From Bolinopsis microptera (Eukaryota; Ctenophora; Tentaculata; Lobata; Bolinopsidae): 64,000 nt of DNA. The DNA is taken from contig NC_087083.1 in the NCBI RefSeq assembly GCF_026151205.1, forward strand, positions 14,444,944 through 14,508,943, written 5' to 3'. Position 1 is the stretch's first letter, and each line of letters starts with the position of its first letter. This document shows, one piece after another, positions 1 to 52,018 of the stretch. The position numbers and the translations under genes were made by a program. The notes beneath the pieces were generated by a model, which saw only the letters and a list, made by a program, of their open reading frames with translations, was not told the DNA's origin and did not search any database.

Positions 1-807
1 AGAATACCTCTGTGAGCCTGCCCAGTACAAATAGAATACCTCTGTGAGCCTGCCCAGTACAAATATAATACCTCTGTGAGCCTGCCCAGTACAAATAGAA
101 TACCTCTGTGAGCCTGCCCAGTACAAATATAATACCTCTGTGAGCCTGCCCAGTACAAATAGAATACCTCTGTGAGCCTGCCCAGTACAAATAGAATACC
201 TCTGTGAGCCTGCCCAGTACAAATAGAATACCTCTGTGAGCCTGCCCAGTACAAATATAATACCTCTGTGAGCCTGCCCAGTACAAATAGAATATCTCTG
301 TGAGCCTGCCCAGTACAAATAGAATACCTCTGTGAGCCTGCCCAGTACAAATAGAATACCTCTGTGAGCCTGCCCAGTACAAATAGAATACCTCTGTGAG
401 CCTGCCCAGTACAAATAGAATACCTCTGTGAGCCTGCCCAGTACAAATATAATACCTCTGTGAGCCTGCCCAGTACAAATAGAATGCCTCTGTGAGCCTG
501 CCCAGTACAAATATAATACCTCTGTGAGCCTGCCCAGTACAAATAGAATACCTCTGTGAGCCTGCCCAGTACAAATAGAATACCTCTGTGAGCCTGCCCA
601 GTACAAATAGAATACCTCTGTGAGCCTGCCCAGTACAAATATAATACCTCTGTGAGCCTGCCCAGTACAAATAGAATATCTCTGTGAGCCTGCCCAGTAC
701 AAATAGAATACCTCTGTGAGCCTGCCCAGTACAAATAGAATACCTCTGTGAGCCTGCCCAGTACAAATAGAATACCTCTGTGAGCCTGCCCAGTACAAAT
801 ATAATAC
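1..807. repeat. 32-bp minisatellite anchored on a 5' splice site
   Basis: About 25 head-to-tail copies of a 32-bp unit containing TGCCCAGTACAAAT, with few substitutions (g/t at one position, occasional c/t). It runs off the left edge. On the minus strand each unit reads TCACAGAG followed by GTATT, which is the end of the kinesin exon at 808-919 plus its GT donor. The array therefore begins at the exon-intron junction and multiplies the donor. Confidence 0.97.
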
Positions 808-2778
808 CTCTGTGATTGCGCTGCTCCTTGGAGAGGTTCCCTTCTAATTTATCTATACTGCTATTCTTCTCGCTAACAGTATCACCCAATTCCTTGATGT
901 TCTGCTCCAAAGAAGCAATCTGAAGGGGTCAACTGTTATTGTTGGGTTTAGTAAGATTAAAGTAGAGGCAAGATAAGGTGTTAGTAGGATTAAAGTACAG
1001 GCAAGATAAGGTGTTAGTAGGATTAAAGTACAGGCAAGATAAGGTGTTAGTAGGATTAAAGTACAGGCAAGATAAGGTGTTAATAGGATTAAAGTACATG
1101 CAAGATAAGGTGTTAGTAGGATTAAAGTACAGGCAAGATAAGGTGTTAGTAGGATTAAAGTAGAGGCAAGATAAGGTGTTAGTAGGATTAAAGTAGAGGC
1201 AAGATAATGTGTTAGTAGGATTAAAGTAGAGGCAAGATAAGGTGTTAGTAGGATTAAAGTACAGGCAAGATAAGGTATTAGTAGGATTGAAGTACAGGCA
1301 AGATAAGGTGTTAGTAGGATAAAAGTAGAGGCAAGATAAGGTGTTAGTAGGATTAAAGTAGAGGCAAGATAAGGTGTTAGTAAGATTAAAGTACAGGCAA
1401 GATAAGGTGTTAGTAGGATTAAAGTACATGCAAGATAAGGTGTTAGTAGGATTAAAGTACATGCAAGATAAGGTGTTAGTAGGATTAAAGTACATGCAAG
1501 ATAAGGTGTTAGTAGGATTAAAGTACATGCAAGATAAGGTGTTAGTAGGATTAAAGTACATGCAAGATAAAGGACCACATTCTTCTCTCAGGGATGAATA
1601 TGTCACATCTCACTAGAGAAGTTAAACTGTACATGTATTGAAACTAGGAATGTGATGTTGCACCTGGTATGTACCAGTTTAATTACCGATGAGTTAATAG
1701 TATTTAATATAGTAAATATAAAATAGTATTTAATAAGAGTTTCACTAACATTAGTATCCAGTTGCTCTATATGTTGTTCCTTCCTCCGCAGTATATTGTG
1801 CACATCCCCCTTCTCTCCCCTCTCTTTCTCTAGGGTCCTCTCAATGTCACATATCTTGTTGTCTCTACTGGCTATTGTACAGTTTAGCTTCTTTATCTCC
1901 TCATTCAGTTCCTCTATCTGGGGAGATGTTACTATCACAATGCTGTCAAACAATAAGCATGACCGTGCCTCTTATACATATTATGAAACCATTAAAATAC
2001 ATCTCGATTCTCGGCTATACTCTCGGCGATACCCCGGCTAGGTTCCTAGTAAAAGTTAAACACTTTGATAGAAATCATGCAGACGTGATTAAATACCAGA
2101 ATTATCAGACTTAATTTGATGAGAGTAAATTTATATAAAATATCTTGAGACAATACTGAGCAGGGTTACGGAAAATTCCTTACTAGATAATGGATATTAT
2201 GGAAGCTACCGGTGAACTCATTGGTTAGGAAATCCAGTAATAAGTAGAATATGCAGCAAGGTTGGTGGTACAAGAAGTAAAGATTTAAAATACCTCAATT
2301 GTAAGTAGTAGTGGTAACTTAGTAATTGCAAAGGCTTCCTTGCAAAACGGAAGGAACAATAACCGAAGTGGACGGATTATGTGATCAGCTAGGTGGTACA
2401 AAGGTATGTAGTTACCAAGTCAGGCTGTGAGAGATGTTGCGACATATGATTTTCATTTCCAATTTTAACGTCTAATCCCATAATATACATAATAAGTCAG
2501 TGCACGTTCATTGGGTCCTATAATATAGCCTAGTTTCATATTGAGACCTGCAACTTTGCAGATGATATACTGTATCTACTCATTCGAGGATTCAGAGGCC
2601 CCACCCAGGTTCTAGGTCCTAGGTTTTTATCAGTCGAGATATCTGATTAATTAAACTTGCTACTTGCTAGTTGGGGAATTGTGAATAAAGTCTGGGAACA
2701 AATTTGCCACAAGCATTTCTCTGCGGGAATGCAGAATTTACAATTTTTTTAAAGATTTCACTCTCAAACTTTTGCAAA

Positions 2779-2813
<35 letters not shown>

Positions 2814-5800
2814 GGGGGCTTTTTTCAAAGCATATCAATCATACCTTCTCATTGAGTTGTCCTTCACGTTTCTTGCTCTTAACCAGCTCTTCCTCCGCCT
2901 CCTCCCTAAAATTGTTAGCTCTCCTCAAATCTCTCTCTAAATCATCTGCTCTGTTCTCTGCCTCCCTCATCTTAGACTTCGTACGGGAGAAATCTTCTTC
3001 CAGTTCATCACGCTGCACGTATATTCATTAGTTAACGACAATAACATCTAACATCAAAGTAGTTTATAGTCACAACAAAGTAAGGTAACCAGGTAACCAG
3101 GTAACCAGGTAACCAGGTAACCAGGTAACCAGGTAACCAGGTAGTTTATATTATTCCCACCTCGCGCTTTATCCGCTCATAAGATGACACCTTCTCGTTC
3201 CTCTCAATAATAGCCTCGTCTAACTTGAAGGTTTGCTCGTGACACTTAGTGTTTATCTCAGTTAGCTGCACTGTTGTCGTGCTCAAATCCTCTTTCAACT
3301 GCACGTTCTGTAGGGTACGTTACTTTAACTAAATATAAGTCAGTAAATCTACAACAGAAACCATATCTAATCTCTACAAGGATCTCCAGTCATTTCAATT
3401 TTTAATGAAACTTGGCACCATAACCAATGAAAATATGGTAGATATTGGAATATTAATTAAATTACTCGATTTGTTGTTTTCTTGTTTCGGTAGCTGGATA
3501 AACTATACACTGGCACTTTATAATTTAACTGTTAAATGCTAAAAACACTACCTCTATTTTTAACATGTACTTTATAATTTAACTGTTAAATGCTAAAAAC
3601 ACTACCTCTATTTTTACCATGTACTTTATAATTTAACTGTTAAATGCTAAAAACACTACCTCTATTTTTAACATGTACTTTATAATTTAACTGTTAAATG
3701 CTAAAAACACTACCTCTATTTTTAACATGTACTTTATAATTTAACTGTTAAATGCTAAAAACACTACCTCTATTTTTAACATGTACTTTATAATTTAACT
3801 GTTAAATGCTAAAAACACTACCTCTATTTTTAACATGTACTTTATAATTTAACTGTTAAAAGCTATAAACACTACCTCTATTTTTAACATGTCCAGGTCC
3901 CCAGTCTTCTGATTCACATCATCCTCCAACTCTACCAGCTTCTCCTCCATACTCCCCCTCTCTTCTTTCAGAGAGTTGTACAGACTTGTCACGTCTTCAA
4001 GTCGGCCTGGATAGAGAATGTTACTAGCAATGTTACTAGCAAGGAACTGTTGCTATTATTTATATCACTAGCAGTTATGTTGCTAATATTAAAAGGGGCG
4101 ACACTTGTCCCCCCCCCCCCCCCGGCCCCACACCTACCTTTAATATCCCAGGCTGCACGCTTCTTCTTGCCACTAGCAGCTGGACCTCCCTTGGTAGAGT
4201 TTCCTTTGGATACAGAAGTAGAGTTTCCTGTTTCTTTAGCTTTCCTGATAGCAGAACCACCAACTTTAGGGATGTAGTCCTTATCACGTCTAATTACAGG
4301 AGTAGCTGGAGAAGGAGTTATAACTAATTAACTAATTAACTAATTAACTAATTAACTAATTAACTATTTAACTAATTAACTAATTAATAACTAATTATAG
4401 TATAATTATTAGTAATATTTACTGGGTATGTAGAGGGGAGATGTAACTAATTGTAAACATTTAAAATTATAACATTTACAAACTGAAAATTGTTTGCATA
4501 GCAAACAATTCGCGAATTTTTGCTTCCATAAAAACTCGAAAATCTATTCCTCACGAAAATTAATGCTTTTACTTTTTCTTCTCTCATTCAATCATTCTCC
4601 TTGGAAACAAGTCATCATTGCAGTTTCAAGGTGCCATCAAATTTAGCAATATTTAATTAATCAGACTAATAGGCGATTCATACTCTAACCTAAAACGTTA
4701 CTCTACTGGGGACTCTACTCTAAAGTTACTCTACTCTAACTTTACTCTACTCTAACGTTACTCTACTCTAACGTTACTCTACTCTAACGTTACTCTACTC
4801 TAACGTTACTCTACTCTAACGTTACTCTACTCTAACGTTACTCTACTCTAACGTTACTCTACTCTAACGTAACTCTACTCTAACGTTACTCTACTCTAAC
4901 GTTACTCTACTCTAACGTTACTCTACTCTAACGTTACTCTACTCTAACGTAACTCTACTCTAACGTTACTCTACTCTAACGTTACTCTACTCTAACGTTA
5001 CTCTACTCTAACGTTACTCTACTCTAAAGTTACTCTACTCTAACGTTACTCTACTCTAACGTTACTCTACTCTAACGTTACTCTACTCTAACGTAACTCT
5101 ACTCTAACGTTATTCTACTCTAACGTTACTCTACTCTAACGTTACTCTACTCTAACGTTACTCTACTCTAACGTAACTCTACTCTAACGTTACTCTACTC
5201 TAACGTTACTCTACTCTAACGTAACTCTACTCTAACGTTACTCTACTCTAACGTTACTCTACTCTAACGTTACTCTACTCTAACGTTACTCTACTCTAAC
5301 GTTACTCTACTCTAACGTTACTCTACTCTAACGTTACTCTACTCTAACGTTACTCTACTCTAACGTTACTCTACTCTAACGTTACTCTACTCTAACGTTA
5401 CTCTACTCTAACGTTACTCTACTCTAACGTTACTCTACTCTAACGTTACTCTACTCTAACGTTACTCTACTCTAACGTTACTCTACTCTAACGTTACTCT
5501 ACTCTAACGTTACTCTACTCTAACGTTACTCTACTCTAACGTTACTCTACTCTAACGTTACTCTACTCTAACGTTACTCTACTCTAACGTTACTCTACTC
5601 TAACGTTACTCTACTCTAACGTTACTCTACTCTAACGTTACTCTACTCTAACGTTACTCTACTCTAACGTTACTCTACTCTAACGTTACTCTACTCTAAC
5701 GTTACTCTACTCTAACGTTACTCTACTCTAACGTTACTCTACTCTAACGTTACTCTACTCTAACGTTACTCTACTCTAACGTTACTCTACTCTAACGTTA

Positions 5801-6239
5801 CTCTACTCTAACGTTACTCTACTCTAACGTTACTCTACTCTAACGTTACTCTACTCTAACGTTACTCTACTCTAACGTTACTCTACTCTAACGTTACTCT
5901 ACTCTAAAGTTACTCTACTCTAACGTTACTCTACTCTAACGTTACTCTACTCTAACGTTACTCTACTCTAACGTTACTCTACTCTAACGTAACTCTACTC
6001 TAACGTTACTCTACTCTAACGTTACTCTAATCTAACGTTACTCTACTCTAACGTTACTCTACTCTAACGTTACTCTACTCTAACGTTATCCACTGTAATT
6101 ACTTGTTATGTTAATAACCTAAGTTACCAGTTTACCCCTCAATTATGAATTAACTCACGTTGGCCACGTACGCTGCGTATGCTTCTCTTCGTTGCTAAAC
6201 GAATGCTTCTCCTCATCCTATTCCGTGTTGTATTCAAGT
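808..6239 (-). CDS. kinesin-14 (KIFC1/HSET-like), tail and coiled-coil stalk; partial, motor beyond left edge
   Basis: Exons in transcript order: 6159-6239, 4138-4305, 3876-4006, 3161-3307, 2845-3012, 1750-1917, 808-919. All have AG/GT borders and consistent phases (1,1,0,0,0,0, leaving phase 1). The first exon is arginine-rich. The second is basic (Lys/Ser/Thr-rich) and ends in AAWDIKGRLED, close to the conserved AWDLKGQL segment that precedes the stalk in vertebrate KIFC1. The following exons encode an uninterrupted charged coiled coil rich in E, K, R and L. Minus-end-directed kinesin-14 motors of this type bundle spindle microtubules, with the motor at the C-terminus; that part would lie left of position 1 and is not seen. 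The first exon receives a phase-1 junction and its only ATG (near 6,216) is internal, so it probably continues from the LEM exons at 20.18-22.86 kb. A separate short start at 6,216 cannot be excluded. Identity as KIFC1-like rests on one motif plus architecture. Confidence 0.75.
948..1570. repeat. 33-bp minisatellite carrying TACTAAC branch-point motif
   Basis: About 19 copies of a 33-bp unit built on gtgttagtaggattaaag. On the minus strand (the kinesin transcript) every full unit contains TACTAAC, a perfect branch-point consensus. The array abuts the intron's own TTACTAAA, about 30 nt before the acceptor of exon 808-919. A unit length divisible by three makes long artificial ORFs on both strands. 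Confidence 0.95.
1951..2778. other. kinesin intron, nothing recognised
   Basis: Intronic, AT-rich single-copy sequence between the stalk exons at 1750-1917 and 2845-3012. I see no exon, RNA gene or transposon signature here. Confidence 0.5.
2779..2810. repeat. poly-G tract (32 G)
   Basis: Uninterrupted G run in a kinesin intron, ending 34 bp from the donor of exon 2845-3012 (a C run on the transcribed strand). Length may be imprecise because homopolymers are error-prone. Confidence 0.9.
3084..3142. repeat. 8-bp tandem repeat (ggtaacca)n
   Basis: About seven perfect copies of an 8-bp unit in the kinesin intron, beginning 18 bp past the donor of exon 3161-3307. Confidence 0.95.
3515..3892. 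repeat. 54-bp minisatellite containing exon end plus donor
   Basis: Seven copies with a period of exactly 54 bp (cactacctc recurs at 3546, 3600, 3654, 3708, 3762, 3816 and 3870). On the minus strand each unit carries ACATGTTAAAAATAGAG, the last 17 nt of kinesin exon 3876-4006, followed by the GTAGTG donor. The rightmost copy is the real exon end. Confidence 0.97.
4321..4395. repeat. 8-bp tandem repeat (taactaat)n next to a 3' splice site
   Basis: About nine copies, slightly degenerate, lying 15-90 bp upstream of the acceptor of kinesin exon 4138-4305 on the transcribed (minus) strand. Confidence 0.92.
4712..6088. repeat. 16-bp minisatellite (gttactctactctaac)n
   Basis: Roughly 85 copies of a 16-bp unit with sporadic single-base variants (acgtaac, aaagttac, tattct), filling most of the intron between kinesin exons 4138-4305 and 6159-6239. 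It is not a telomere-type or coding repeat. Confidence 0.97.
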
Positions 6240-6628
6240 CTGAAAAGGGATCTTCATTTGGTTCGCTTAATTGATTTTAAATTTATTTAAGTAATTGAAA
6301 TTCATCATCAACTTTGCTATATAAGTTGTTGCACCCCCCCTCCCCCACCTCCGGCCCTCCCCTCCCCTACCTCCGGCCCCCCCCCCCCACTCCGTTCTTC
6401 AGTTAACTGGTTTATTTTATTCCTATGTCCAGTAATAGTTAGTCTGACTGAGCCCACGCTACTAGACTGTTAACCAGATAAACCAATGTGCTGAAACGGC
6501 CAGGTGAATACAGTTTTTAATTAATTATGTTACGTTTTCCTAGACTACATGTCATATTTATATTCAACACTCAGAAGTAACACCTTCCTGACCACCAGTT
6601 TCGGCATCAAATTTAATACCTGCTATTA

Positions 6629-7866
6629 TAGATGTGGATACTGGCGGGGAGGTGATCATTGTTTGTTTACATTAATAGGGAACACATGTTCAGGAGGCTG
6701 AGGAGGTGATCATTGTTTGTTTACATTTTAGGTGGAACACATGTTCAGGAGGCTGAGGAGGTGTTACATATTTTTTATTATAGAAGGCTTGTAACACATG
6801 TAACGCCTTCTTGTTACCCCCCTTTGAGGACCCCGAATTATTTTCTGAACGAAAGCTCAAAAATAACCGAGAAATCGACCTTCTTATTAACTCATTTTGA
6901 TGACCGTTTCTAACCTAAAACTGCACGAAAAATCGATTTAGCTAGGTTTCAGAACCTATAAACACTTCCTTATCCCTCAAAATCGATGTTTTATAGTTTA
7001 GAATGCAAGCAACAAGCAACATATATTTTGATCCTTCGGTTCTACAGCTCTTGACCTAGGGCTGAAACCGAAAGATCGAGGCAATCCTAACCTTAACTGA
7101 TCGAACTTGAGCGAAGAGCAGAGTTCGACAAAACACAGCAGGTAAGCAACTCATTTTTGTGACTGTTCCTCACCTGTACAACGTTGCACGAGAAATCGAT
7201 TAAAATTGGTTTTACAGCCCAATAACGCTTCCCTTTTTCCTCAAAATTGTTGTGTTACTCAAACAAAGAACATGTTGATTCTGCAACGAAAGAACAAGGA
7301 GATTGTCTCATTAACAACTCAAACAGGTTCTATCACAATTTTCAGAGCAGAGCACGATATAGCAAAAGTCAAAAGAAACAAGTAAAGGTATATAACAATC
7401 ATTTAAATAACAACTGAATTATATTTATTCGGACAACGGGCAGCCCTGATGTGCTCCGCGTCCGTGATTTCGACCAATTGTATTAGAGGTGTTCTGTCAC
7501 GTGACGCTGATTCGTCCAATCACAACAGGAAGAGTGAGCAGAGGGACATTATATCGTATGTTTACATTTCTTATCTGTATTTGACCCTTTGTTCACATTG
7601 TTATCTCTGCCACAGGTTGGCAATTTCAAGGTGCTCTTATCTGCAGACTGCACCTCGGTACACACGCCATGATTACGTCATACAGAACTAGAAATTGTGT
7701 GAACCGTGATCATTACAATGAAACCGTGCCCACTGCCCATGTACAATGCAAACTGTTGGGGGGGGGGGGGGGGGGGGATGGGTTGGGGGTTGTTTACGAT
7801 AGTCAAACAATCTTGATAGTGTGTCAAGGTCTCTCCTCCAACTAAGAATAATAACATGATTTTTTC
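6629..7866 (+). repeat. left terminal inverted repeat arm of the Harbinger-type element
   Basis: Collinear with the reverse complement of 12,055-13,380, including a long G run near 7,757 mirrored by a C run near 12,170. An 80-aa reading frame at 7449-7691 recurs at 12255-12497 with a couple of substitutions simply because the arms are copies. Confidence 0.92.
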
Positions 7867-8215
7867 CTTTTCACCCTTTTGAAAAAAGGCAATAGTGAAA
7901 GGTTACGAATGGACGTTTTTGCAGAAAAACGTGGATTTTGGAGATAGCAGTAGGTGGGTCTGAACATGTCGTCGGTACGTACTTCCGTATGTTACCATGC
8001 AACGAAAAAGTTGCGCGCGCGAGGATTACTTGCGGAGATGTGATGTATAAATAGCCTGTGATCTATGAATGCGCGGCGCGACTGTGTTGTTTAATGTAGA
8101 CGATGTAATGTATAATATTAGGTTATAAGCCCAATTTGTACGTGGCACGCGTAGTGTACTGATGTTTCAATATTATTATTATAAGGTAAAGGAGAGCTGA
8201 TTAGAGCTTATATTA

Positions 8216-9450
8216 CCCCTAAGTTCCATGCCCGAATTTTCACTCAAATTTTTCACCCGAATAAAATTTGCCCGAATTTTTAACCCACATTTTTCGCTTC
8301 GACTGAAATATTCGGGCTAAAAAAATTCGTGAACTTGCGCACGAATTTTTTAAATTTCACTCAAATAATATAGTCGCTGCGGTTGTAATCAATACTATAA
8401 TTGCATTTCGTTGTCCTAAATGTTTCCGGGATTACCTAACGCATATCATCATAACACTAATGATAACAACGCTATTACACTACACATCGATTACACGATT
8501 AGCCATTTTATTGAGGAGCTGCAGTGAGTCATTTTCGGGTTCCCAAGAACCAATGTTTTATTATCTGATATTTAGGACGACTGAGGAGAACTGAGGAGGA
8601 TGACTGAGGAGGACTGAGGAAGAGGAGGAGGAGGACTGAGAAGAAGGGGGAGGAGGAAGAGGACTAAGGACGAGTAGGACTGAGGAGGAGGAGGACTGAG
8701 GATGAGGAGGACTTAGGAGGAGAAGGACTCAGGAGAAGGAAGACTCAGGAGGAGGACGAGGACTCAGGAGGAGGACGAGGACGAGGAGGACAAGGAGGAC
8801 TGAGAAGGAGGACGAAGGACGAGGAGGACTGAGAAGGAGGAGGAGGAGGACTAAGGACGAGGAGGACTGAGGAGGAGGAGGAGGAGGACTGAGGAGGACT
8901 GAGGAGGACTGAGGAAGAGGAGGAGGAAGCATCTAAATGTTATTTCCACAACATTCTTGTCTGTTTTTGTTCCGTTCTTGTCCGCCCTACTTTTTGTCCG
9001 TTTTGAAAATATAGGGTACCGAACGGACAAAAACGGACACAAAACATGATCCCCTCCCCAGTCCTTATATCTTTATATTAATTTAAGTTGGTCAAACATG
9101 TTAATTGCGAAGGAATTATTCTTGACTATGAAAGTTCAAACAACTTAATTTAGATATGTCAACCCTATTTTCTTAAATTTACACAAAAAAGTTTATAGAA
9201 AATATATGAAGGACACTAATTTGCTTTGCACATTGGTTGTTACACTAGTTTACGTGATGTTAACGTAATTTTCATCCTAATTTAAACTTAGGTGGTCGCA
9301 GTCTCGATCCCACCCGACGCAACCGATACGCGTATCGATTTCCGCACGCAAATTATTTGGGCATGGAACATGTCACCCGAATAAATTTTTTTCACAAATA
9401 AAATTTGCCCGAATTATTTTACCGTATTATTTGGCCATGGAACTAAGGGG
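8216..9450. mobile_element. nested TTA-flanked non-autonomous element (MITE-like)
   Basis: Ends are inverted: CCCCTAAGTTCCATG on the left and CATGGAACTAAGGGG on the right, each flanked by TTA (8213-8215 and 9451-9453). The interior has repeated subterminal motifs with TGCCCGAAT and a GGA-rich microsatellite, but no transposase. Same target preference as the host Harbinger element but different termini; probably mobilised by a related transposase. Confidence 0.85.
8575..8935. repeat. GAGGA/GAGGACT purine microsatellite
   Basis: Imperfect polypurine repeat with frequent gaggactgagg inside the nested MITE. Pro/Ser/Leu-rich reading frames over it are by-products. A similar polypurine stretch occurs at 11,396-11,516 in the outer element. 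Confidence 0.9.
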
Positions 9451-9750
9451 TTAATAGTTATAGTGAAATGGAAATCTAGCGTCCGCCAAAACGAAACAAC
9501 GGGCGCAATTCTTGTTTAGTTATAGTATGTCTAGGCTGAACTGCGGAGATAAGTACAGTTTGCTGTAATATGTACAGTTTGCTGTAATATGTGGTCGCGA
9601 TTATCAACTCAGTGGAATTTCAAATGATGAACTGTGCTTTAAGTTTACACCAACTGGAACCAAAAGAATATACCCATGAGTGCTCCCTAACTTAACTTGG
9701 ACGGTAAGTGTTTGACAATAAAAACTAGGACACGAATTCTCTGACAAGAA

Positions 9751-9905
9751 ATGTTAGCAGGTTTAAATAAAATATACCTGCAGTTAGCAGGTTTAAATAA
9801 GATATACCTGCAGTTAGCATGTTTAAATAAGATATACCTGCAGTTAGCAGGTTTAAATAAAATATACCTGCAGTTAGCAGGTTTAAATAAAATATACCTC
9901 CAACT
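9751..9905. repeat. 30-bp tandem repeat with hairpin-forming unit
   Basis: Five copies of a 30-bp unit starting gcaggtttaaata and ending acctgcagtta, inside the Harbinger element. GCAGGT and ACCTGC within each unit are complementary, so every unit can form a short hairpin. Confidence 0.93.
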
Positions 9906-9962
9906 GACTGTGGTGCTTATCGTCCAGTCAGGAACAGAATAATAACATAATTTTTTATTTAT

Positions 9963-11397: not shown

Positions 11398-11516
11398 AGG
11401 ACATCAGGACAAGGAAGAGGGGGAGAATGGGGAGAAGGAGGAGGACTGGGGGAGGAGGAGGAGGAGGGAGGAGGAGGACTGAAGAGAACACGGAGGAGGA
11501 GGGGGACTGAGGAGGA
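11396..11516. repeat. GGA-rich polypurine microsatellite
   Basis: Imperfect gaggaggaggactg repeat inside the Harbinger element, upstream of the transposase blocks on their strand. Confidence 0.9.
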
Positions 11517-11829
11517 AAAAACGACACAAAAGTGTACGGTACAAGCTAAAATATCTGCCTGTTTCATTCAGTACAAGTAGATTTTAAATAGAAATTTTAA
11601 TAGCGTACAGCAAAGATCTGACCCATGAACCGAAATAAAATGTAGCTGGTTAACGAACTAAAGAGAGGTCCATTGAACTCGAACCATACCAATTGATATT
11701 TTGAGTTATTTGTCTAACCTGTTGAAAATAAACTGGACCATGTTGAACTGGTACTTCAATTATGGGTACAACCATGCTCGTCCTTGTGTACACCGCAAGT
11801 GCCTGCTCCTGTAACATACATTTATTGTC

Positions 11830-13380
11830 AGAGAATTCGTGTCCTAGTTTTTATTGTCAAACACTTACCGTCCAAGTTAAGTTAGGGAGCACTCATGGGT
11901 ATATTACTTTGGTTCCAGTTGGTGTAAACTTAAAGCACAGTTCATCATTTGAAATTCCACTGAGTTGATAATCGCGACCACATATTACAGCAAACTGTAC
12001 ATATTACAGCAAACTGTACTTATCTCCGCAGTTCAGCCGAGACATACTATAACTAAAAAATCATGTTGTTATTCTGTTCCTGACTGGACGATAAGCACAG
12101 CAGTCAGTTGGAGGAGAGACCTTGACACACTATCAAGATTGTTTGACTATCGTAAACAACCCCCAACCCAACCCCCCCCCCCCCCCCCAACAGTTTGCAT
12201 TTTACATGGGCAGTGGGCACGGTTTCATTGTAATGATCACGGTTCACACAATTTCTAGTTCTGTATGACGTAATCATGGCGTGTGTACCGAGGTGCAGTC
12301 TGCAGATAAGAGCACCTTGAAGTTGCCAACCTGTGGCAGAGATAACAATGTGAACAAAGGGTCAAATACAGATAAGAAATGTAAACATACGATATAATGT
12401 CCCTCTGCTCACTCTTCCTGTTGTGATTGGACGGATCAGCGTCACGTGACAGAACACCTCTAATACAATTGGTCGAAATCACGGACGCGGAGCACATCAG
12501 GGCTGCCCGTTGTCCGAATAAATATAATTCAGTTGTTATTATGATTGTTATATACCTTTATTGTGTTTCTTTTGACTTTTGCTATATCGTGCTCTGCTCT
12601 GAAAATTGTGAAAGAACCTGTTTGAGTTGTTAATGAGACGATCTCCTTGTTCTTTCGTTGCAGAATCAACATGTTCTTACTTCTTTGTTTGAGTAACACA
12701 ACAATTTTGAGAAAAAAGGAAGCGTTATTGGGCTGTAAAACCAACTTTAATCGATTTCTCGTGCAACGTTGTACAGGTGAGGAACAGTCACAAAAATGAG
12801 ATGCTTACCTGCTGTGTTTTGTCGTACTCTGCTCTTCGCTCAAGTTCGATCAGTTAAGGTTAGGATTGCCTCGATCTTTCGGTTTCAGCCCTAGGTCAAG
12901 AGCTGTAGAACCGAAGGATCAAAATATATGTTGCTTGTTGCTTGCATTCTAAACTATAAAACATCGATTTCGAGGGATAAGGAAGTGTTTATAGGTTCTG
13001 AAACCTAGCTAAATCGATTTTTCGTGCAATTTTAGGTTAGAAACGGTCATCAAAATGAGTTAATAAGAAGGTCGATTTCTCGGTTATTTTTGAGCTTTCG
13101 TTCAGAAAATAATTCGGGGTCCTCAAAGGGGGGTAACAAGAAGGCGTTACATGTGTTACAAGCCTTCTATAATACAAAATATGTAACACCTCCTCAGCCT
13201 CCTGAACATGTGTTCGACACCTAAAATGTAAACAAACAATGATCACCTCCTCAGCCTCCTGAACATGTGTTCGACACCTAAAATGTAAACAAACAATGAT
13301 CACCTCCTCAGCCTCCTGAACATGTGTTCCCTATTAATGTAAACAAACAATGATCACCTCCCCGCCAGTATCCACATCTA
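11830..13380 (-). repeat. right terminal inverted repeat arm of the Harbinger-type element
   Basis: Reverse complement of the left arm. The segment 11,830-12,054 matches 9,517-9,750, the inner part of the left arm displaced by the nested insertion. Confidence 0.92.
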
Positions 13381-13725
13381 TTAGAATATGACATTGTAAT
13401 AGTCACCGTAACAACTCACGTTGACGACTACAGAGGGACACAGAGAGAGGGACAAAAGGGAGAGAAGTAACGATGATAGTAGCCGAGCAAAGGAATAAGT
13501 GTAATAAGACAGGTTGTTATGATTGGAGTGATAGAGCTCCCACTAAAAGTAGTATAATTGCTTGCAATCCCAGTAACAGTTATTTTATTGTTGTATCTAG
13601 TTGGTGCTCCTTGTTAACATCTCAAAACTTTATCTCCCCACAATTTTACACTTATTCTAATCTGTATTAATAACGGCTCAATAGATTGGTTGATGAGAAG
13701 GACAGGAGAATGTACACAATACAGC

Positions 13726-16700
13726 ATGTTCCTACTAGTGGCCTCATGTCACGTGCTACCACTCCTCGCACAGCAGGGTCAGTCTTATCTTCAACACTTG
13801 TACACTTGTACTGCAGGTGCACTTGTACTGCAGGTGCGCTTGTACTGCAGGTGCGCTTGTACTGCAGGTGCGCTTGTACTGCAGGTGCGCTTGTACTGCA
13901 GGTACGCTTGTACTGCAGGTACGCTTGTACTGCAGGTACGCTTGTACTGCATGTACGCTTGTACTGCATGTACGCTTGTACTGCAGGTGCGCTTGTACTG
14001 CAGTTACACTTGTACTGCAGGTGCACTTGTACTGCAGGTGCACTTGTACTGCAGGTGCGCTTGTACAGCAGGTACGCTTGTACTGCAGGTACACTTGTAC
14101 TGCAGTTACACTTGTACTGCAGGTGCACTTGTACTGCAGGTGCACTTGTACTGCAGGTGCACTTGTACTGCAGGTGCACTTGTACTGCAGGTGCACTTGT
14201 ACTGCAGGTGCACTTGTACTGCAGGTGCACTTGTACTGCAGGTGCGCTTGTACTGCAGGTGCGCTTGTACTGCAGGTACGCTTGTACTGCAGGTGCGCTT
14301 GTACTGCAGGTGCACTTGTACTGCAGGTGCACTTGTACTGCAGGTGCACTTGTACTGCAGGTGCACTTGTACTGCAGGTGCATTTGTACTGCAGGTGCAC
14401 TTGTACTGCAGGAACACTCAGATGAAAGTTCTGGAAAGCTTTGTTTCTTGAGATAACATAGGTCAGGTAAGAGAAATCTATTTGTGTTTAAGAGACTGAG
14501 AGAAATAATGAAAATCAAAAGGAGCTGTAGGGCCGAGCTTAGAACTTTCTGGATTTATGTAAGTAAAACTAAAAACTGCTCTAAAGTCCTAATAGCACCA
14601 GTATGCAGTTCATAATGAGGGAGGTTTCAGGGTTCGCATATTACAACGTCAGCAGCGGAGGTGGGAGGGGGTTTGATGACGTCAGCGTAAATACCTGAAT
14701 TTTGCTCAATACCCTCCAGGTTTTTCACCAAATTCTCTCAATTATCTCAAGTAATACCCACACATCCCAGACCATACTAACCCCCCGGCCCCCCCCCCCT
14801 TATATTAGCCCAATGGCGGGAACTAATGCACACATTTCAGACAGTGGGTATTGTACTGACAAACCAGAGTTCGCTGAGAACTGCCCAGTATGGGCTGAGG
14901 CTGGGTTCTGTTTACATAGTAATATTATTCCTTTATCAAACATTCTGTTTACAATGTAACATCACTCCTTTATCAATCATTTCCGCATTTTTGTCCCCGG
15001 AATTGCCCATATTGTAGACCAACAACTTTTAAGCCATGTTTGTGATTTTAATTGATTCCTTGCATTGTGTTACATGATATTATTACAGAAAAATACGCCA
15101 CCAACGTGCGAGAAAACTGTCCAAAAAGCTGCAACGCCTGTCCTTTAGGTATGTTATCTACTTTAAGGTATGTTATCTACTTTAAGGTATGTTATCTACT
15201 TTAAGGTATGTTATCTACTTCAAGGTATGTTATCTACTTTAAGGTATGTTATCTACTTTAAGGTATGTTATCTACTTTAAGGTATGTTATCTACTTTAAG
15301 GTATGTTATCTACTTTAAGGTATGTTAACTACTTTAAGGTATGTTATCTACTTTAAGGTATGTTATCTACTTTAAGGTATGTTATCTAATTTAAGGTATG
15401 TTATCTACTTTAAGGTACGTTATCTACTTTAAGGTATTTTATCTACTTTAAGGTATGTTATCTACTTTAAGGTATGTTATCTACTTTAAGGTATGTTATC
15501 TACTTTAAGGTATGTTATCTACTTTAAGGTATGTTATCTACTTTAAGGTATGTTATCTACTTTAAGGTATGTTATCTACTTTAAGGTATGTTATCTACTT
15601 TAAGGTATGTTATCTACTTTAAGGTATGTTATCTACTTTAAGGTATGTTATCTACTTTAAGGTATGTTATCTACTTTAAGGTATGTTATCTATTTTAAGG
15701 TATGTTATCTAATTTAAGGTATGTTATCTACTTTAAGGTATGTTATCTACTTTAAGGTATTTTATCTACTTTAAGGTATGTTATCTACTTTAAGGTATGT
15801 TATCTACTTTAAGGTATGTTATCTACTTTAAGGTATGTTATCTACTTTAAGGTATGTTATCTACTTTAAGGTATGTTATCTACTTTAAGGTATGTTATCT
15901 ACTTTAAGGTATGTTATCTACTTTAAGGTATGTTATCTACTTTGAGGTATGTTATCTACTTTGAGGTATGTTATCTACTTTAAGGTATGTTATCTACTTT
16001 AAGGTATGTTATCTACTTTAAGGTATGTTATCTACTTTAAGGTATGTTATCTACTTTAAGGTATGTTATCTACTTTAAGGTATGTTATCTACTTTAAGGT
16101 ATGTTATCTACTTTAAGGTATGTTATCTACTTTAAGGTATGTTATCTACTTTAAGGTATGTTATCTACTTTAAGGTATGTTATCTACTTTAAGGTATGTT
16201 ATCTACTTTAAGGTATGTTATCTACTTTAAGGTATGTTATCTACTTTAAGGTATGTTATCTACTTTAAGGTATGTTGTCTACTTTAAGGTATGTTATCTA
16301 CTTTGAGGTATGTTATCTACTTTAAGGTATGTTATCTACTTTTAGGTATGTTATCTACTTTAAGGTATGTTATCTACTTTAAGGTATGTTATCTACTTTA
16401 AGGTATGTTATCTACTTTAAGGTATGTTATCTACTTTAAGGTATGTTATCTACTTTAAGGTATATTATCAGCTAATTTTAAAATGATTTACTTCCTTATG
16501 TTTGAGTACACAAATAGTACTGAACTTATCCTGCGAATGGTGACCGGAAGTCTGATTATTCAGTCGATATTTAACAAAAAAACTTTCACGGAATTACGAA
16601 ATAACAAAAATATAAGTGTGTGTAAATCTGGATTTTACGCAGAACATAACACATACGCCTCTGGATATTTGGCTAATCATGAAATACACAACCATTTAAT

Positions 16701-19700
16701 AAATATAACATACGATATACATTACATATAAGCGGCAAGAGAAACGCCATTTCAGGAGTAGAAGAGAGTGAGGACTCCTCAGACAACACTACAGAAGAAT
16801 CTATGTGTTTTAACGGCCCTGTAACCTACGTGGAGGGTACCGTAATAAATGAGGTACAATTCACTACTGAGGTTGAATGTGTGGAACTCTGTTATAACAA
16901 CACCACGTAAGACGTTATTTCTAGAGTCTACACATTAATATAGCAGCTTGTTCTTTTGTTAGACTGATCAGAGAAAAATAAGAAACATACCGGTTTCTAT
17001 TTTGTTTTGAAATAAGCTCAACTTCTGAGAATAATAATTAAAGGTGGGTCATGATGGTAAGGTCTAACACAAGACACTGTGATTTAGGACATTTATGGAG
17101 CGAGCTGTATCTATTTCAGGTGCGGAGCAGCAGTAATAACACCCACTACTACTACTGATACTACTACTGATACTACTACTGATACTACATCAGAACCAGT
17201 AAACGATACTAAATGTTACTCTTATTCAACTGGTTACACTTTACATGATGGTAGATTGTTGTGGGCTACAGCGGACAGAACCTGTATTGAAACATTTCTC
17301 ACATTTACAACGGGTGAGACATCTTTTTTTCTTCAGAATATTTGGATATAGTAATGGCGGGGGGGGACCCAATTGATCACTTATTGTTTCAAAATCAAAA
17401 AAGAAATATTACTGACAAACAGCTTCTTTATCATTGTATCTGTATTTAGCCATTTTGGACATGAAGGATGAAACTTGGCGGTGCTCAGAAGTGCCATTAT
17501 CAGGTTTAGAAGATGAGGATTGTTTTAAGGAAGGTTTGAAAGTTGCTGCAAGCAAGGAAATGGAACACCCCTTTACTACCCCGGAATACTGTGCTGAACT
17601 GTGTTTAAATCACACAGAGTAAGATTACCAGCCTAACCTTTCCTACTTACCCAAATGAACTTTATTTATATCAGATCCAAGTATGTTATTTATCCCGGTT
17701 ATCTTGTAGGTGACATGTGTGGCTTTATTATGTTTTTAAACCTGATCCACTGATAATGGTAGTTAGGTATTACAGGTATTACAGGTATTACAGCTCCTCA
17801 TTCTTTATTTCCTCAGCTGTAAAGCAATAGGTCTCAGCCCCGCCAATCCGCTAGAAAAAAGTAACTTTACTCTGACAAGCAACTGCAGTCTGATGTTGGA
17901 CAATTACACACTGGAATACCAAACTCTATTGAGTGTGGCTGAACGACCTTGCTTTGCAACAGGTAACTGATAACTGATAACTGGTAACTGGTAACAGGTA
18001 ACTGGTAACTGATAACTGATAACATGTAACTGGTAACATCCCCCCCCCCTACAAGATCTCTCTAACCCAACAGATGAGTGTTACGCAATAGACAAGACAT
18101 GGAGTTACGTGACAACTAACGTTACATTCCCCATAAAGACAGGAGATGTTATCTCAGTTTACTGTGACAAGACAAATAAGGAGCTTCTAGATGGAGACAC
18201 CAACATTACCTGTGTAACAGGTACTGGGTATGGTTTGGTAGCTGTGTAACAGGTACTTGGTATGGTTTGTTAACAGCATCATCTAGCTTGACTCTTATAG
18301 TCTTAGACAGAAGAGCGGTTTGTTTGAGGTTGTTTGAGGTAGTTTGAGGTTTGTTTGAGGTTTGTTTGAGGTTTGTTTTAGGTTGTTTGAGGTTTGTTTG
18401 AGGTTTGTTTGAGGTTTGTTTGAGGTTTGTTTGAGGTTGTTTGAGGTTTGTTTGAGGTTGTTTGAGGTTTGTTTGAGGTTGGGGGGGGGGGCCAACCATA
18501 TTAAAGTATATTAAAATGTAGGATTTTCCCGATTTTGACCCGGGGATATACTTTAATATACTTTAATATACCTACAATATACTTTAATATATCCCTATCC
18601 TTGGAGGCCTACATCGAAAATTGTTACCCAAAATAAGCTTGAAATGCAATTCTTAATCGATTCCAAAAAGTTCTTGAAAAAATATTGAAAACTGATAGAG
18701 TTATTTCAATTTTAATGAAGTCATTTTGGCTAGTATTCCTAACAGAGATATTATGTGCAATTTTCCCAATTTTGTTCATGGAGGTCTTTTTACTTAGTAT
18801 CCACTATATTCAACAAACACTGAGTTATATCTTTCACATAGAGTTAGTCTCATTAAAAAATATTGAAATTTTATCGAATTTGGGCAAAAGCGAATTTGGG
18901 CAAAAGCGTATGCCCAAATATGGGCATATTTTTTAAAGCTCATAGCTCAGCCAATTTTTGACCAATCTGGATGGAAATTCATGTACTAGTCCTAAAACAG
19001 GCTTATCTTGCGAATCTGAGTGAAAAATATAGTTCATCATGTAAATCTTAACGAAGAATATAAATCTTCTAATTGTAGGTATATTAAAGTATATTAAAAT
19101 GTAGGATTTTTTCCGATTTTGACCCGGGGATATACTTTAATATACTTTATTATGGTTGGCCCCCCCCCCCCCCCCCCCGAGGTTGTTTGAGGTTTGTTTG
19201 AGGTTTGTTTGAGGTTGTTTGAGGTTTGTTTGGGGTTTGTTTGAGGTTGTTTGAGGTTTGTTTGAGGTTTGTTTGGGGTTTGTTTGAGGTTTGTTTGAGG
19301 TTGTTTGAGGTTGTTTGAGGTTTGTTTGAGGTTTGTTTGAGGTTGTTTGAGGTTTGTTTGAGGTTTGTTTGAGGTTTGTTTGAGGTTGTTTGAGGTTTGT
19401 TTGAGGTTGTTTGGGGTTTGTTTGAGGTTTGTTTGAGGTTTGTTTGAGGTTGTTTGAGGCTTGTTTACTATACTGCCCACACAGGTACAACATTTAGCTA
19501 CGACAGCTTCGGTACCAGGCCTTGGTGTGGCAAAAATAAAACCGCTCGTCAACCAGGTAAAAATAAAAAATGGTATTTCTTTAATTTTATAATGATCAAA
19601 ACTTTGATAAAAAGATAAAAGTGGCTCTACAAATAGGCCTAGATACAAATTACTCTAGTATTGATTCTGTATCAGAGAGCCAGGGATTGAACTGTCTATA

Positions 19701-20088
19701 GCAGACGGAGTATATCTATACTCTGTTTGCTAAAGAAAGACATATAATAAATAATTTTAAATATTTTTGTTGTTAGACGAATTTTCCTGTTAGCTTCTAT
19801 TTCCTTGTGATGGTCTACATGTGCAAACGTTCAGGGTCAGGGCGGATCATAATAATAAACGATATGACAGTAGTGTTAGAAAGAAAGTCGTTATTCAGCG
19901 AGAGAACACAGCAGACAGACTTGTCAGATGTACAGGAGGACCTGATCAACTATCTGGTGTGCGGGATTACTTGCTTCTCCATTCTGGTCTTCACTCTTAT
20001 CTTTATAGTTCAGAGACACGGTAAAGGTAAACATGTGGATATTGATGGCAAATGGGAGTATATGTTGGAGACGGATTACGGATTCTAG
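13726..20088 (+). CDS. type I membrane protein: signal peptide, ShKT, PAN/apple-like, sushi, TM
   Basis: Ten exons, all phases consistent: 13726-13816, 14841-14918, 15089-15148, 16756-16906, 17120-17313, 17450-17618, 17817-17962, 18074-18220, 19485-19556, 19835-20088 (1,362 nt, 453 aa plus stop). Exon 1 starts MFLLVASCHVLPLLA, a signal peptide. Exons 2-3 make one ShKT domain (six Cys, CPVWAEAGFC and NCPKSCNAC). Exons 4-5 and 6-7 look like PAN/apple modules (VECVELCYNNTTCGAAV; TPEYCAELCLNHTDCKAI), with a Thr/Asp repeat TTTDTTTDTTTD between. Exons 8-9 form a sushi/CCP domain split by an intron. Exon 10 gives a TM segment (ITCFSILVFTLIFIVQ) and a 25-residue tail ending ETDYGF. It is probably a cell-surface or adhesion protein; ligand unknown. 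An in-frame ATG at 13693 would add 11 residues. An ATTAAA at 20141 may be its poly(A) signal. Five of its nine donors head tandem arrays or duplications. Confidence 0.88.
13800..14415. repeat. 17-bp minisatellite anchored on the exon 1 donor
   Basis: About 36 copies of cttgtactgcaggtgca with g/a variants. Each contains CTGCAG followed by GTGC or GTAC. The first copy is the end of exon 1 of the ShKT gene and its GT donor (exon end 13816). Because 17 is not a multiple of 3, the ORFs of up to about 280 aa in several frames are by-products. Confidence 0.96.
14911..14985. repeat. two-copy donor-proximal duplication (~38 bp)
   Basis: Sequence around the exon 2 donor (ttctgtttacata, gtaatattattcc) is repeated immediately downstream in diverged form (ttctgtttacaat, gtaacatcactcc). 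It looks like an old tandem duplication spanning the exon-intron junction. Confidence 0.75.
15149..16461. repeat. 19-bp minisatellite starting at the exon 3 donor
   Basis: About 69 near-perfect copies of gtatgttatctactttaag, beginning at the first intron base after exon 3 of the ShKT gene. Each junction reads AAG|GTATGT, a strong donor consensus, so the intron opens with dozens of potential 5' splice sites. Confidence 0.98.
17963..18035. repeat. short tandem array of gtaactg/gataactg at the exon 7 donor
   Basis: Variants of a 7-10 bp unit (gtaactg, gataactg, gtaacag) repeated about eight times from the donor GTAACT of the exon ending at 17962. A later unit reads aacaggtaac, copying the exon end AACAG|GTAAC. 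Confidence 0.88.
18211..18274. repeat. two-copy 32-bp duplication spanning the exon 8 donor
   Basis: TGTGTAACAG|GTACTGGGTA is followed 32 bp later by TGTGTAACAG|GTACTTGGTA. The last 10 nt of the sushi exon and its donor are therefore duplicated. Confidence 0.93.
18320..19462. repeat. tttgagg-type minisatellite, split by a transposon
   Basis: 10-11 bp units (gtttgaggttt / gtttgaggtt) occupy 18,320-18,480 and resume at 19,180-19,462 in the same intron. The interruption is a G-run-bounded inverted-repeat element. Confidence 0.93.
18482..19178. mobile_element. non-autonomous element with G-run terminal inverted repeats
   Basis: Left end is a G run then CCAACCATATTAAAGTATAT; right end is the inverse, ATATACTTTATTATGGTTGG then a C run. 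A second internal inverted motif (aatgtaggatttt, gacccggggatata) lies near both ends as a direct copy. Flanks gaggttg on each side fit a 6-7 bp target duplication, but the target is itself repetitive. No coding capacity seen. Confidence 0.75.
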
Positions 20089-20183
20089 CATGTTTTGCCA
20101 TAACATTGAGCTGTAAGGTTAAGTTATAATGTTTCTGATCATTAAATACTGATTAAAATAACGGCGTGAAGGGGTGAACTTAC
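20089..20183. other. 3' flank of the ShKT gene meeting an intron of the LEM gene
   Basis: Only 95 bp separate the plus-strand stop codon from the nearest minus-strand exon (20184-20320). The ATTAAA at 20141 lies here. The two transcription units must overlap antisense if the minus-strand model is right. Confidence 0.6.
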
Positions 20184-22863
20184 CGTTTTTCTTGTTAGCT
20201 GAAATAGCGCTGGCAGGTTTAACAGCGTCTTTCTTAGAGCCTTTCTTTAATGTGGAGCTTGTTCCTTTCATGTAACCTGGCGTGTTACCCATACTGAAAA
20301 TGTTACCCATGTTACCCATACTGAAAATGTAAAGGTTTAGCTGTCAATTAGCTGTCTGCTAATCGAGTTTATTTGGTATTGACATTCTGTTGAGACATTC
20401 TGAGACTTTAATGTGTTTCACTTCTAAAGAAGTACCGCAAGTCAAATATACTTAAGACAGTGAAAAGAGTGACTCACGTTACGTTCAGTTTACTGGTAAC
20501 GTTGAGTTTGTTTGTGTTAGAAAATGCAGATGTTTTGCTGGGAGCTTTAGTCTCTGATTTCGCAGCAGCATCTGGAATCAGTAAAATGTAAACTTTTGTA
20601 TGGTGTTGCTTCTTATGGTCGGTTCCAATACTAGAAGTTACTAGAATATAAACGAGAAAACCAAAGACGAAAAAGTAGCGGAATTTTTCATTCTCAAACA
20701 CTCATTTTTAAAACAATTAATGAAAAAGTTCAACAAAAATTACCAATTTTCTCCTTGAGAGTAGCAGAAGACTCGGTCACTCTAACCCCTGGGGCCCTTA
20801 AAACACCTTTCTTAGTGGTGCTGGTTACCATAGTTACACTACTTGTTACACAGACCGCTTCCTCCGCAAGCTTCTTACTGAGTGCTGTGCGCTCAATTGT
20901 GCTGCGTCGTAGTGAGGGCACTTGGTAGGTTGGGATACCTGACAAACATTCTGTGTCAGCCCGGCCCGGCTTTTAATAGCTAATACTCAAAATGTGTGCT
21001 TGATTTTTTACATACAAATGCAGAGTAACTCTGGCAACAAGTTCAAAATTGTAAAGAAAGCAGCAATTTAAAGGATTTTTACAAGCAATAAAGTCTTTGA
21101 AATTGATGTATCAAATTAATGGATGCTGATTTGAATTGTGACAGAAAGAAGTAAAGATTGACTATTGGGTGATAAAAAATAAAGCTGATTCAGAATTAGT
21201 TATTCTAATGTTGAAACGTACACGTGTGCAAACATAACAAATTGATATACAATCCGTGCTATCATTATAATATCAAGATAACAGTCTCTTTAGGATAGAG
21301 ATGCATCTCTTCTTATTCTGCTAAATCCTAGTTTAAGATTTTCATCTTTTTCGTAGTTAGGAATTATGATCAAGATGACTATACTTGTTAAATATAATCA
21401 CAATGCTACAGCATTTAAGTAAAGCTCATTACAATAAAAGGCAGCTTCAGAGTGCATCATGCAATATATTAAAGTCACTTTGTGACGGTACATTAGAACC
21501 AGACAGAAACAAAGTGTGAAGGGCCTGAATATATACATGCTCGTGAGCTGATTTTATAATTCATGTGACCTCTCATAAATCTGTACATAGCTACATTACA
21601 GCAGGGAGACTGTCACCTCTGTACATAGCTACATTACAGCAGGGAGACTGTCACCTCTGAAGCTACATTTCAGCAGGGAGACTGTCACCTCTGAAGCTAC
21701 ATTACAGCAGGGAGACTGTCACCTCTGAAGCTACATTTCAGCAGGGAGACTGTCACCTCTGAAGCTACATTACAGCAGGGAGACTGTCACCTCTGAAGCT
21801 ACATTACAGCAGGGAGACTGTCACCTCTGTACATAGCTACATTGCAGCAGGGAGACTGTCACCTCTGAAGCTACATTGCAGCAGGGAGACTGTCACCTCT
21901 GAAGCTACATTACAGCAGGGAGACTGTCACCTCTGAAGCTACATTGCAGCAGGGAGACTGTCACCTCTGAAGCTACATTACAGCAGGGAGACTGTCACCT
22001 CTGAAGCTACATTACAGCAGGGAGACTGTCACCTCTACATAGCTACATTACAGCAGGGAGACTGTCACCTCTACATAGCTACATTACAGCAGGGAGACTG
22101 TCACCTCTGAAGCGGACTCTATTGAGCCCTGAAGTGATGTTAGAAATGGGGTGAGTTGTGTCCTTTGTTGTGGGTGAGGAGTGAGGTGTCCCCACGTGAT
22201 GCCCATATAAGGAGTGAGGTGTCCCCACGTGATGCCCATATAAGGAGTGAGGTGTCGCGTCTGATATATCCTCTTCTTCCTCAACTAGTGGGTATTCACT
22301 GCTTAGATGCTTCAATCAAATGCAAAAAGGCAAGAGCTAAAGTAAAAGAGGGCATCTAGAAGTTCGAGCTTTTCCTTAATCAATCAAGGATTTGTTAATT
22401 AGAAGATAACCCAGAGGATAATTGTGGATTTCATTGTGTGCTGTAAATACCTTTCTTCTTTTTATCGTCAGGAATAGAGAAGGTGGCCTCGCACAACTTC
22501 TCATCATCAGTCAAAGTTAAGGGTGATCTCTTGAGTTTGTTGTTTCGTAGGACTGGGGTGCTAGCTGGGTCAGGTCTAGGACTCAGTATGGGGGATCCCA
22601 ACTTTACTTCTATATCCTCTGAAGAATTATAAGTTTACAAAGTCGGCTCTTATATCTTAACAGAGCAACTCTACAAGGAGTTTTCATAACCCTGACAGTG
22701 TGTTATTCAATACAAGAAAACATAGTTTACTGTATTTACCTTCTTCTAGCAGCTTTGTGTACAGTTTCTGGTAAATACTCCTAGTGGTGTTAGTCACCGG
22801 ACCGATCTGGTGGCCCTTGCTCGACAGTAGCCGCCTCAGCTCCTGGTCTGTTATGTTCTCCAT
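20184..22863 (-). CDS. LEM-domain protein N-terminus, probably the 5' part of the kinesin-14 gene
   Basis: Exons in transcript order: 22740-22863, 22451-22618, 22105-22260, 20744-20938, 20478-20571, 20184-20320; every border is AG/GT and every phase is compatible. The start ATG at 22863 lies 2 nt after a pyrimidine-rich acceptor. Residues 1-41 form a LEM domain (ITDQELRRLL then GPVTNTTRSIYQKL), the ~40-residue fold known from LAP2, emerin and MAN1 that binds the DNA-bridging protein BAF. The rest is low-complexity, Ser/Thr/Lys-rich, with a 12-residue duplication (THSLYGHHVG-like) in exon 3. No TM segment is present, unlike inner nuclear membrane LEM proteins. The last exon ends with a perfect GTAAGT donor in phase 1, matching the phase-1 acceptor of the kinesin exon at 6159-6239. 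Either this is one LEM-kinesin-14 gene or a separate gene whose terminal exon I missed. Confidence 0.75.
20293..20320 (-). other. duplicated 3' splice acceptor
   Basis: Two copies of TTTTCAG|TATGGGTAAC lie 27 nt apart at the start of exon 20184-20320. Both keep the frame, so either could be used, adding or removing nine residues. Confidence 0.75.
21581..22104. repeat. 34-bp minisatellite anchored on a LEM-gene donor
   Basis: About 15 copies of a 34-bp unit (gctacattacagcaggg plus agactgtcacctctgaa, some with gtacata inserted). On the minus strand each gives GCTTCAGAG|GTGACAGTC, the end of LEM exon 22105-22260 plus its donor. Confidence 0.97.
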
Positions 22864-43302: not shown

Positions 43303-43520
43303 CGTTGGCCCCCCCCCCCCCCCAAATATACTCATCGAAAAAATGGCGAAAAATGGTGAGATTTTGGAAACCTGATTCATCATTTTACACAATTGGATAC
43401 CCCCGGTTTAACTGGGCAAATATTTGTGATTTTCATTGGATAAGGCACGTTATCAATGCCAAATTCCTTTACGATCGAATTTAAATTAAATGTACAGTTT
43501 TATATTTCTCTTATAATATT

Positions 43521-43533
43521 TCAATACCTCAGA
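43521..43533 (+). promoter_or_regulatory. acceptor-like site directly before the zinc-finger start codon
   Basis: tttcaatacctcag then A-ATG. The same sequence precedes the start in all seven copies (AG ends at 43532, 47293, 52017, 54119, 56045, 57968 and 59810). It could be a 5'UTR intron acceptor or a spliced-leader addition site. Confidence 0.65.
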
Positions 43534-44259: not shown

Positions 44260-44278
44260 TCAGAAATACAGAACTACA

Positions 44279-47227: not shown

Positions 47228-47294
47228 AAATTCCTTCACGATCGAATTTAAAATAAATGTACTTTATATATCTCTTATATTTCAATACCTCAGA

Positions 47295-48270: not shown

Positions 48271-48289
48271 TCAGAAATACAGAACTACA

Positions 48290-51784: not shown

Positions 51785-52018
51785 TGAAATGCTTTGAAGC
51801 TTTTAAAGTGTCAAGTACTGCCTCCGCTTGGTGTTCCTCAATCAATCAAAAATCAGTGATCATGTTCATTCAATGATTGACCTAGTTTATCTTTTGGTTT
51901 AACTGGGCAAATATTTGTGATTTTCATTGGATAAGGCACGTTATCAATGCCAAATTCCTTCACGATCGAATTTAAAATAAATGTACTTTATATATCTCTT
52001 ATATTTCAATACCTCAGA

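Follow-up and report, generated by a model that had tools for sequence, protein, structure and literature searches.

Mirage-type minisatellites spanning splice sites in genes of the ctenophore Bolinopsis microptera

In several genes of the ctenophore Bolinopsis microptera, tandem repeat arrays run across an exon-intron boundary, each repeat unit joining exon sequence to the splice signal that follows or precedes it. We describe such arrays in a stretch of 64,000 nucleotides ("the window": NCBI RefSeq assembly GCF_026151205.1, contig NC_087083.1, positions 14,444,944 to 14,508,943 of the forward strand) and in introns sampled elsewhere in the genome. These arrays are real and recurrent: of 55 arrays found in 105 curated introns, 11 span a 5' splice site (donor), two span a 3' splice site (acceptor) and 42 span neither. 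They are the same kind of object as the minisatellite-like "mirages" of amphioxus, in a new phylum, and we found no report of boundary-spanning minisatellites from ctenophores in the literature that we searched. The data hint at a special role for the donor. We think it probable that these are minisatellites born from tandem duplications that fell arbitrarily over splice sites, were tolerated there and then expanded within the intron.

Arrays in a KIFC1-like kinesin gene

At its left edge the window holds a minus-strand gene for a KIFC1-like kinesin-14, identical to a Mnemiopsis leidyi protein at 571 of 683 residues (83%). We traced this gene for 20 kb to the left of the window, through 16 exons and short of its 5' end, and a model that takes the splice site nearest the exon at every junction gives 683 amino acids with no stop and 15 GT-AG junctions. 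A 32-bp array (1..815, minus strand), called like the others by Tandem Repeats Finder (TRF), has 25.5 copies in the window and 32.5 in total, as it extends 223 nt leftward; it spans the donor of intron 6, with 808 as the final exon base and 8 nt of exon inside the array (TCACAGAG|GTATT). Intron 2 has its donor within a TRF array of seven 54-bp units (3515..3892, minus strand; final exon base 3876, overlap 17 nt, ATAGAG|GTAGTG), and the donors of introns 7 (60-bp units) and 15 (33 bp, 52 copies) are spanned as well. Two acceptors of the same gene, both to the left of the window, are also covered: that of intron 13 by 112 copies of a 26-bp unit (G000:C12:14430586-14433496, 3 nt of exon) and that of intron 8 by 20 copies of a 71-bp unit (C12:14436782-14438203, about 65 nt of exon). 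The preliminary description of this DNA had taken the donor to be the one factor common to the arrays, and these two acceptor arrays speak against that.

All six array-bearing junctions of the gene are gapless in the protein alignment to Mnemiopsis. The other end of intron 8, its donor, was picked again after we had seen the Mnemiopsis protein (the first choice left a gap, the second was a GC site, and the third, CC|GTGAGT, matches both phase and protein). A counter-example lies in the same gene, where 19 copies of a 33-bp unit (948..1570, minus strand) sit in the interior of intron 5 and end 28 nt upstream of its acceptor. Intron 6 is 6.0 kb long and contains eight TRF arrays, among them a CT-rich one of 244 copies of 13 bp; it shrinks to about 0.8 kb once the arrays are collapsed.

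Arrays in the other genes of the window

Taken over three genes, the window arrays that include an exon end and its 5' splice site have units of 54, 32, 37, 19, 7 and 34 bp. A plus-strand gene, in which we take some exons to encode ShKT- and PAN-like domains from their motifs, has four of its eight donors spanned, three by TRF arrays and one by a two-copy duplication. The arrays are a 37-bp duplication of 2.1 copies (14906..14981) over the donor after 14918, in an exon of the ShKT-like domain; 70 copies of a 19-bp unit (15143..16469) over the donor after 15148 (CTTTAG|GTATGT, 6 nt of exon); and 11.4 copies of a 7-bp unit (17958..18037) over the donor after 17962 (CAACAG|GTAACT, 5 nt of exon). 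The two-copy case, of 32 bp (18210..18269, plus strand), holds the exon end GTAACAG|GTACT and was seen by direct reading, the TRF list being without it. On the minus strand, a gene presumably encoding a LEM-like domain, to judge from its motif, has one of four donors spanned, by a TRF array of 15 copies of 34 bp (21589..22113; final exon base 22105, overlap 9 nt, TTCAGAG|GTGACAG). The same exon carries an in-frame 33-bp tandem repeat at 22177-22256, just upstream of the donor array.

Two plus-strand arrays are less clear. One, with 36 copies of 17 bp (13803..14412), either spans a donor (CTGCAG|GTG) or lies just downstream of an alternative one (CAGG|GTCAGT, final exon base 13777), and since direct reading gives the upstream donor the same phase, this array may be wholly intronic. 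The other, an 11-bp array (40206..40345), begins within an intron of a xylulokinase-like gene, 5 nt past the predicted donor, and excludes the exon end. The preliminary description, which placed five main arrays and four smaller ones at donors, thus holds for four of the five, which span the donor of an in-frame gene model, and for three of the smaller cases if the two-copy duplication is admitted; the 17-bp array is ambiguous, and the array at 40206 starts past its predicted donor.

Anatomy of the arrays and variation of their units

The 11 donor arrays take in 53, 53, 17, 8, 17, 26, 13, 6, 5, 9 and 28 nt of exon, that is, between 0.25 and 0.96 of a unit. Because the distance of their starts from the exon end ranges in this way from 5 to 53 nt, the breakpoints look arbitrary, and the earlier statement that arrays begin exactly at the donor has to be given up.

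Repeat units differ between loci. A genome-wide search, which skips simple and very common words, matched the 32-bp, 54-bp and 34-bp units in their own introns alone, so that three of the four units searched are locus-specific; the 19-bp unit has, besides its own intron, a few relatives of 82-84% on C1 and C2. This agrees with the earlier remark that the arrays are unlike copies of one mobile repeat.

Eight of the 11 donor arrays could be parsed, and in these the AG|GT core has changed at 9 of 644 sites (1.4%), compared with 66 of 4037 (1.6%) in the rest of the units (P = 0.87), and GT is kept in 158 of 161 parsed copies. The three arrays left out of this test are two with fewer than three copies and one that could not be parsed (that of the dynein region L038); the gapless parsing took in 16 of the 39 copies of the MED27 array described below and 5 of the 52 copies of the KIFC1 33-bp array. 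We also considered whether deeper donor copies might be put to coding use, and rejected the idea: the period is a multiple of three in just 3 of the 11 donor arrays, which is no excess.

Splice-site use and intron age

Outside the window, one of the random stretches (on C8) contains a MED27 gene with a donor array of 39.5 copies of 37 bp that takes in 28 nt of exon. The protein is 94% identical to its Mnemiopsis leidyi counterpart, and the alignment across the array junction is gapless in Mnemiopsis and in a further relative (P0055); the Mnemiopsis proteins matched here carry the name hypothetical. The KIFC1 and MED27 junctions agree with protein homology, in line with the earlier reading of exon ends at such arrays. 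This supports the use of the splice copy nearest the exon, as far as protein sequence can indicate it, and the continuity with Mnemiopsis at these junctions would be consistent with normal splicing in the presence of the arrays.

In the donor-spanned introns the acceptor lies outside the array. The age of one such intron can be judged: the dynein intron with a 65-bp array (L038) stands at profile position 174.0, the same as an array-free intron of the paralogue L033, from which we conclude that the array entered a pre-existing intron. Another dynein region (L042) has a 55-bp duplication of 2.0 copies over a donor, which looks like an early stage of array formation. As a side observation, each of two dynein heavy-chain genes is contained in one open frame (G000:C3:8954112-8955092, 3357 residues; G000:C1:6100405-6101388, 3703 residues), unlike about 12 intron-rich paralogues; these two are possibly retrocopies or the products of wholesale intron loss.

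Sample and counting rules

The sample of 105 introns joins four sets (dynein, random stretches, KIFC1 and the other window genes); its part outside the window comprises 87 introns with 37 arrays. TRF arrays with periods below 5 or scores below 50 were left out. The 45 dynein introns come from 12 dynein heavy-chain AAA_6 regions, picked solely through profile hits and thus blind to arrays, and were placed by profile continuity. The 33 introns of the random stretches come from ten stretches of 20 kb, examined from a seeded draw of 30, in which ab initio predictions were curated by hand for recognisable coding exons. A permissive first gene model over-called tiny exons and was replaced by stricter runs with hand curation; this curation was our own judgement, made with the arrays already known, weak or unrecognised exons were dropped, and four stretches (R12, R20, R24 and R28) contributed none. 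The labels HUWE1, NUP98, RNMT and PEPD given to genes in these stretches are ones we presume from the sequence.

The null model reduces each array to one unit and places it with uniform probability within the collapsed intron; insertions that postdate the birth of an array lengthen the intron, and hence inflate the apparent excess at donors. For the donor and acceptor counts, three array pieces separated by inserted elements were merged. Dropped before counting were one dynein pair of region L042 with an unplaced exon, the 17-bp array near 13.8 kb and the duplication of two copies at 18210, together with two donor-spanning arrays whose acceptor could not be mapped, one of 18 bp x 3.8 in the dynein region L041 and one of 33 bp x 5.1 in the PEPD-like gene of stretch R26. 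The introns of the xylulokinase and thymidylate kinase genes of the window were not counted either; a donor-spanning array was seen in neither.

Counts at donors and acceptors

Arrays spanning a donor, an acceptor or neither number 2, 0 and 19 in the dynein set (0.66 expected at donors, P = 0.13), 1, 0 and 4 in the random stretches (0.45 expected, P = 0.38) and 4, 2 and 15 in the 15 introns of KIFC1 (1.67 expected, P = 0.08). In the 12 introns of the other window genes they number 4, 0 and 4 (0.51 expected at donors), and the P of 0.0004 obtained there belongs to a region that had been picked in the preliminary description. The dynein and random sets together have three donor arrays where 1.11 are expected (P = 0.09), and all introns outside the window have five, with 2.23 expected per end (P = 0.06), and two acceptor arrays. 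Expressed as frequencies, donor arrays occur in 3 of 78 introns of the dynein and random sets and in 5 of 87 outside the window. When only introns that collapse to 400 nt or less are kept and the window-only genes are set aside, four donor arrays stand against 2.25 expected (P = 0.18). Six interior arrays lie within 30 nt of a donor (P = 0.13). We do not rely on a Fisher test of terminal sites counted by hand (9/109 vs 2/108, P = 0.06).

We also scored the units for splice motifs in an annotation-free way, with a metazoan consensus matrix. At a strict cut, four units score as donors against 2.0 +- 1.3, with no lean to donors; at a loose cut, 10 units score as acceptors against 6.4 +- 2.3, and the reversed and complement controls give 5 of 39 each for the donor motif.

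Other features of the window

An 11-bp array (18317..19466, plus strand) lies in the interior of the intron 18221-19484 and is cut in two by an inverted-repeat element at 18481-19170. The terminal inverted repeats of this element, whose 40-nt arms are 93% complementary, start in long runs of G/C, and direct reading shows an apparent 6-nt target duplication, GAGGTT; its inner sequence has at least 40 matching places, itself included, at 96-100% (40 of 701 candidates scored). For a DNA transposon, G-tract ends of this sort seem unusual. A similar block bounded by a G tract and a C tract splits the 32-bp array of KIFC1 intron 6, to the left of the window (L009).

Further along, in the region 35489-41526, the xylulokinase-like (FGGY) gene, whose exon 1 we take to be such, has an intron in which a thymidylate kinase gene of the same (plus) strand is apparently nested, at about 37.0-38.4 kb. 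The stretch 43444-60861 holds a tandem cluster of C2H2 zinc-finger open frames, at least seven in number and closely similar to one another, with 84-bp finger repeats.

Weighing the explanations

The sequence of events that we consider probable would begin with an ordinary error of replication or repair, duplicating a short segment (7-71 bp here) at an arbitrary spot in a repeat-rich, intron-rich ctenophore gene. If a splice site happened to lie inside the segment, the copy nearest the exon would still have an intact exon end and site, and since that copy stays intact, neither mRNA nor protein need change and the duplication may survive. The spare copies would turn into intron, growing and shrinking by slippage or unequal exchange, and selection on the coding sequence would anchor the exon side of the array. 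Duplications of donors may also be better tolerated than those of acceptors, because a donor adjacent to the exon is directly usable, whereas the choice of an acceptor tends towards the first AG past the branch point.

Several observations weigh against this account, and we do not wish to understate them. Random placement alone would not predict an excess at donors, and over all introns there is one (11 arrays, with 3.30 expected per end; P = 0.0002). It persists when the dynein, random and all KIFC1 introns are taken together (7 vs 2.79, P = 0.016) and, with the window genes counted, in introns whose collapsed length is at most 400 nt (7 vs 2.67, P = 0.011). At the loose cut, 15 of 39 units score as donors against 6.5 +- 2.7. 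Interior arrays lie close to acceptors more often than expected (9 within 30 nt vs 3.6, P = 0.005), which arbitrary duplication does not explain, and the annotation of the random genes is partly ab initio. The enrichment at donors is found in the whole sample and falls to P = 0.06 outside the window; what excess remains (11 vs 3.3 overall, 5 vs 2.2 outside the window) may be real. It could indicate that duplications are directed to the donor, by AG|GT microhomology, co-transcriptional R-loops or breaks at paused spliceosomes, a hypothesis also favoured by the 11 donor arrays against two at acceptors, by donor-like motifs that exceed both loose-cut controls and by the two uncounted donor-spanning arrays of L041 and the PEPD-like gene. 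We nevertheless hold it to be unlikely: the counts outside the window and in short introns without the window-only genes are weak, the starts are spread along the exon, KIFC1 acceptors are spanned too, and the same asymmetry could arise if duplications survive better at donors. Rather doubtful, too, is the broader proposal that minisatellites of this ctenophore lineage, and independently those of lancelets, are born at 5' splice sites because these act as mutational hot spots; if it were true, transcription or splicing would seed tandem duplications, with the exon end and donor kept in each unit.

The remaining hypotheses seem to us much less likely than duplication at arbitrary places. That a tandem duplication of an AGGT-bearing exon segment created the intron (the Rogers/Hellsten model) would account for units that hold exon sequence together with AG|GT, as that model needs, and was among the causes first suggested; we find it very improbable, as the L038 array shares its intron position with an array-free paralogue (the one case checked) and the acceptors of donor-spanned introns lie outside the arrays. 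Another early suggestion, selection for redundant donors that protect splicing, could be read into the near-universal retention of GT, but homogenised arrays would retain it regardless, and the AG|GT core is as variable as the remainder of the unit (in eight of 11 arrays, some partly parsed); we give this hypothesis hardly any weight. Least credible of all is a mobile repeat or transposon-derived satellite inserting at donors: inverted-repeat elements with G/C-tract ends do lie beside or within two arrays, but the units are unrelated among loci, and three of the four searched matched nowhere else within the limits of the search.

Comparison with known systems

Most of the arrays (42 of 55) are just like ordinary intronic minisatellites, with homogeneous, locus-specific units inside the intron; the minority that concerns us differs by taking in exon sequence and a splice site. 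With the AGGT model of intron gain (PMC4974935) they share the duplication of a segment with AG|GT and an unchanged peptide, whereas in the ctenophore the intron was there before its splice site was duplicated, as shown in one dynein case. Natural introns with dozens of identical donors provide material for asking which donor is used, and a route to testing whether splice sites are favoured targets of tandem duplication or simply places where it is tolerated.

The closest parallel is with the mirages of amphioxus, minisatellite-like tandem duplications of exon/intron boundaries known (PMC3087553; PMC3902484) from Adh3, TnC, the globins BflGb6/9 and PGBD5. Adh3 has units of 10-72 bp and the globins have units of 150-160 bp; 5' as well as 3' boundaries are covered, and splicing is reported to be regular. 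The ctenophore arrays resemble them in having boundary-spanning repeats, gene-specific units, many copies with AG/GT signals and both types of boundary. In amphioxus splicing is known from reverse-transcription PCR and mRNA, and in the ctenophore it is predicted from protein continuity; the ctenophore arrays also differ in their host and in copy number, which reaches 112 over an acceptor and 70 over a donor, and their rates are estimated partly from introns chosen regardless of arrays (the dynein set). The papers that we consulted treat minisatellites across exon-intron boundaries as peculiar to lancelets. That a ctenophore, so distant from chordates, has them at several percent of the donors sampled suggests that a strong turnover of minisatellites in intron-rich genomes may generate them generally.

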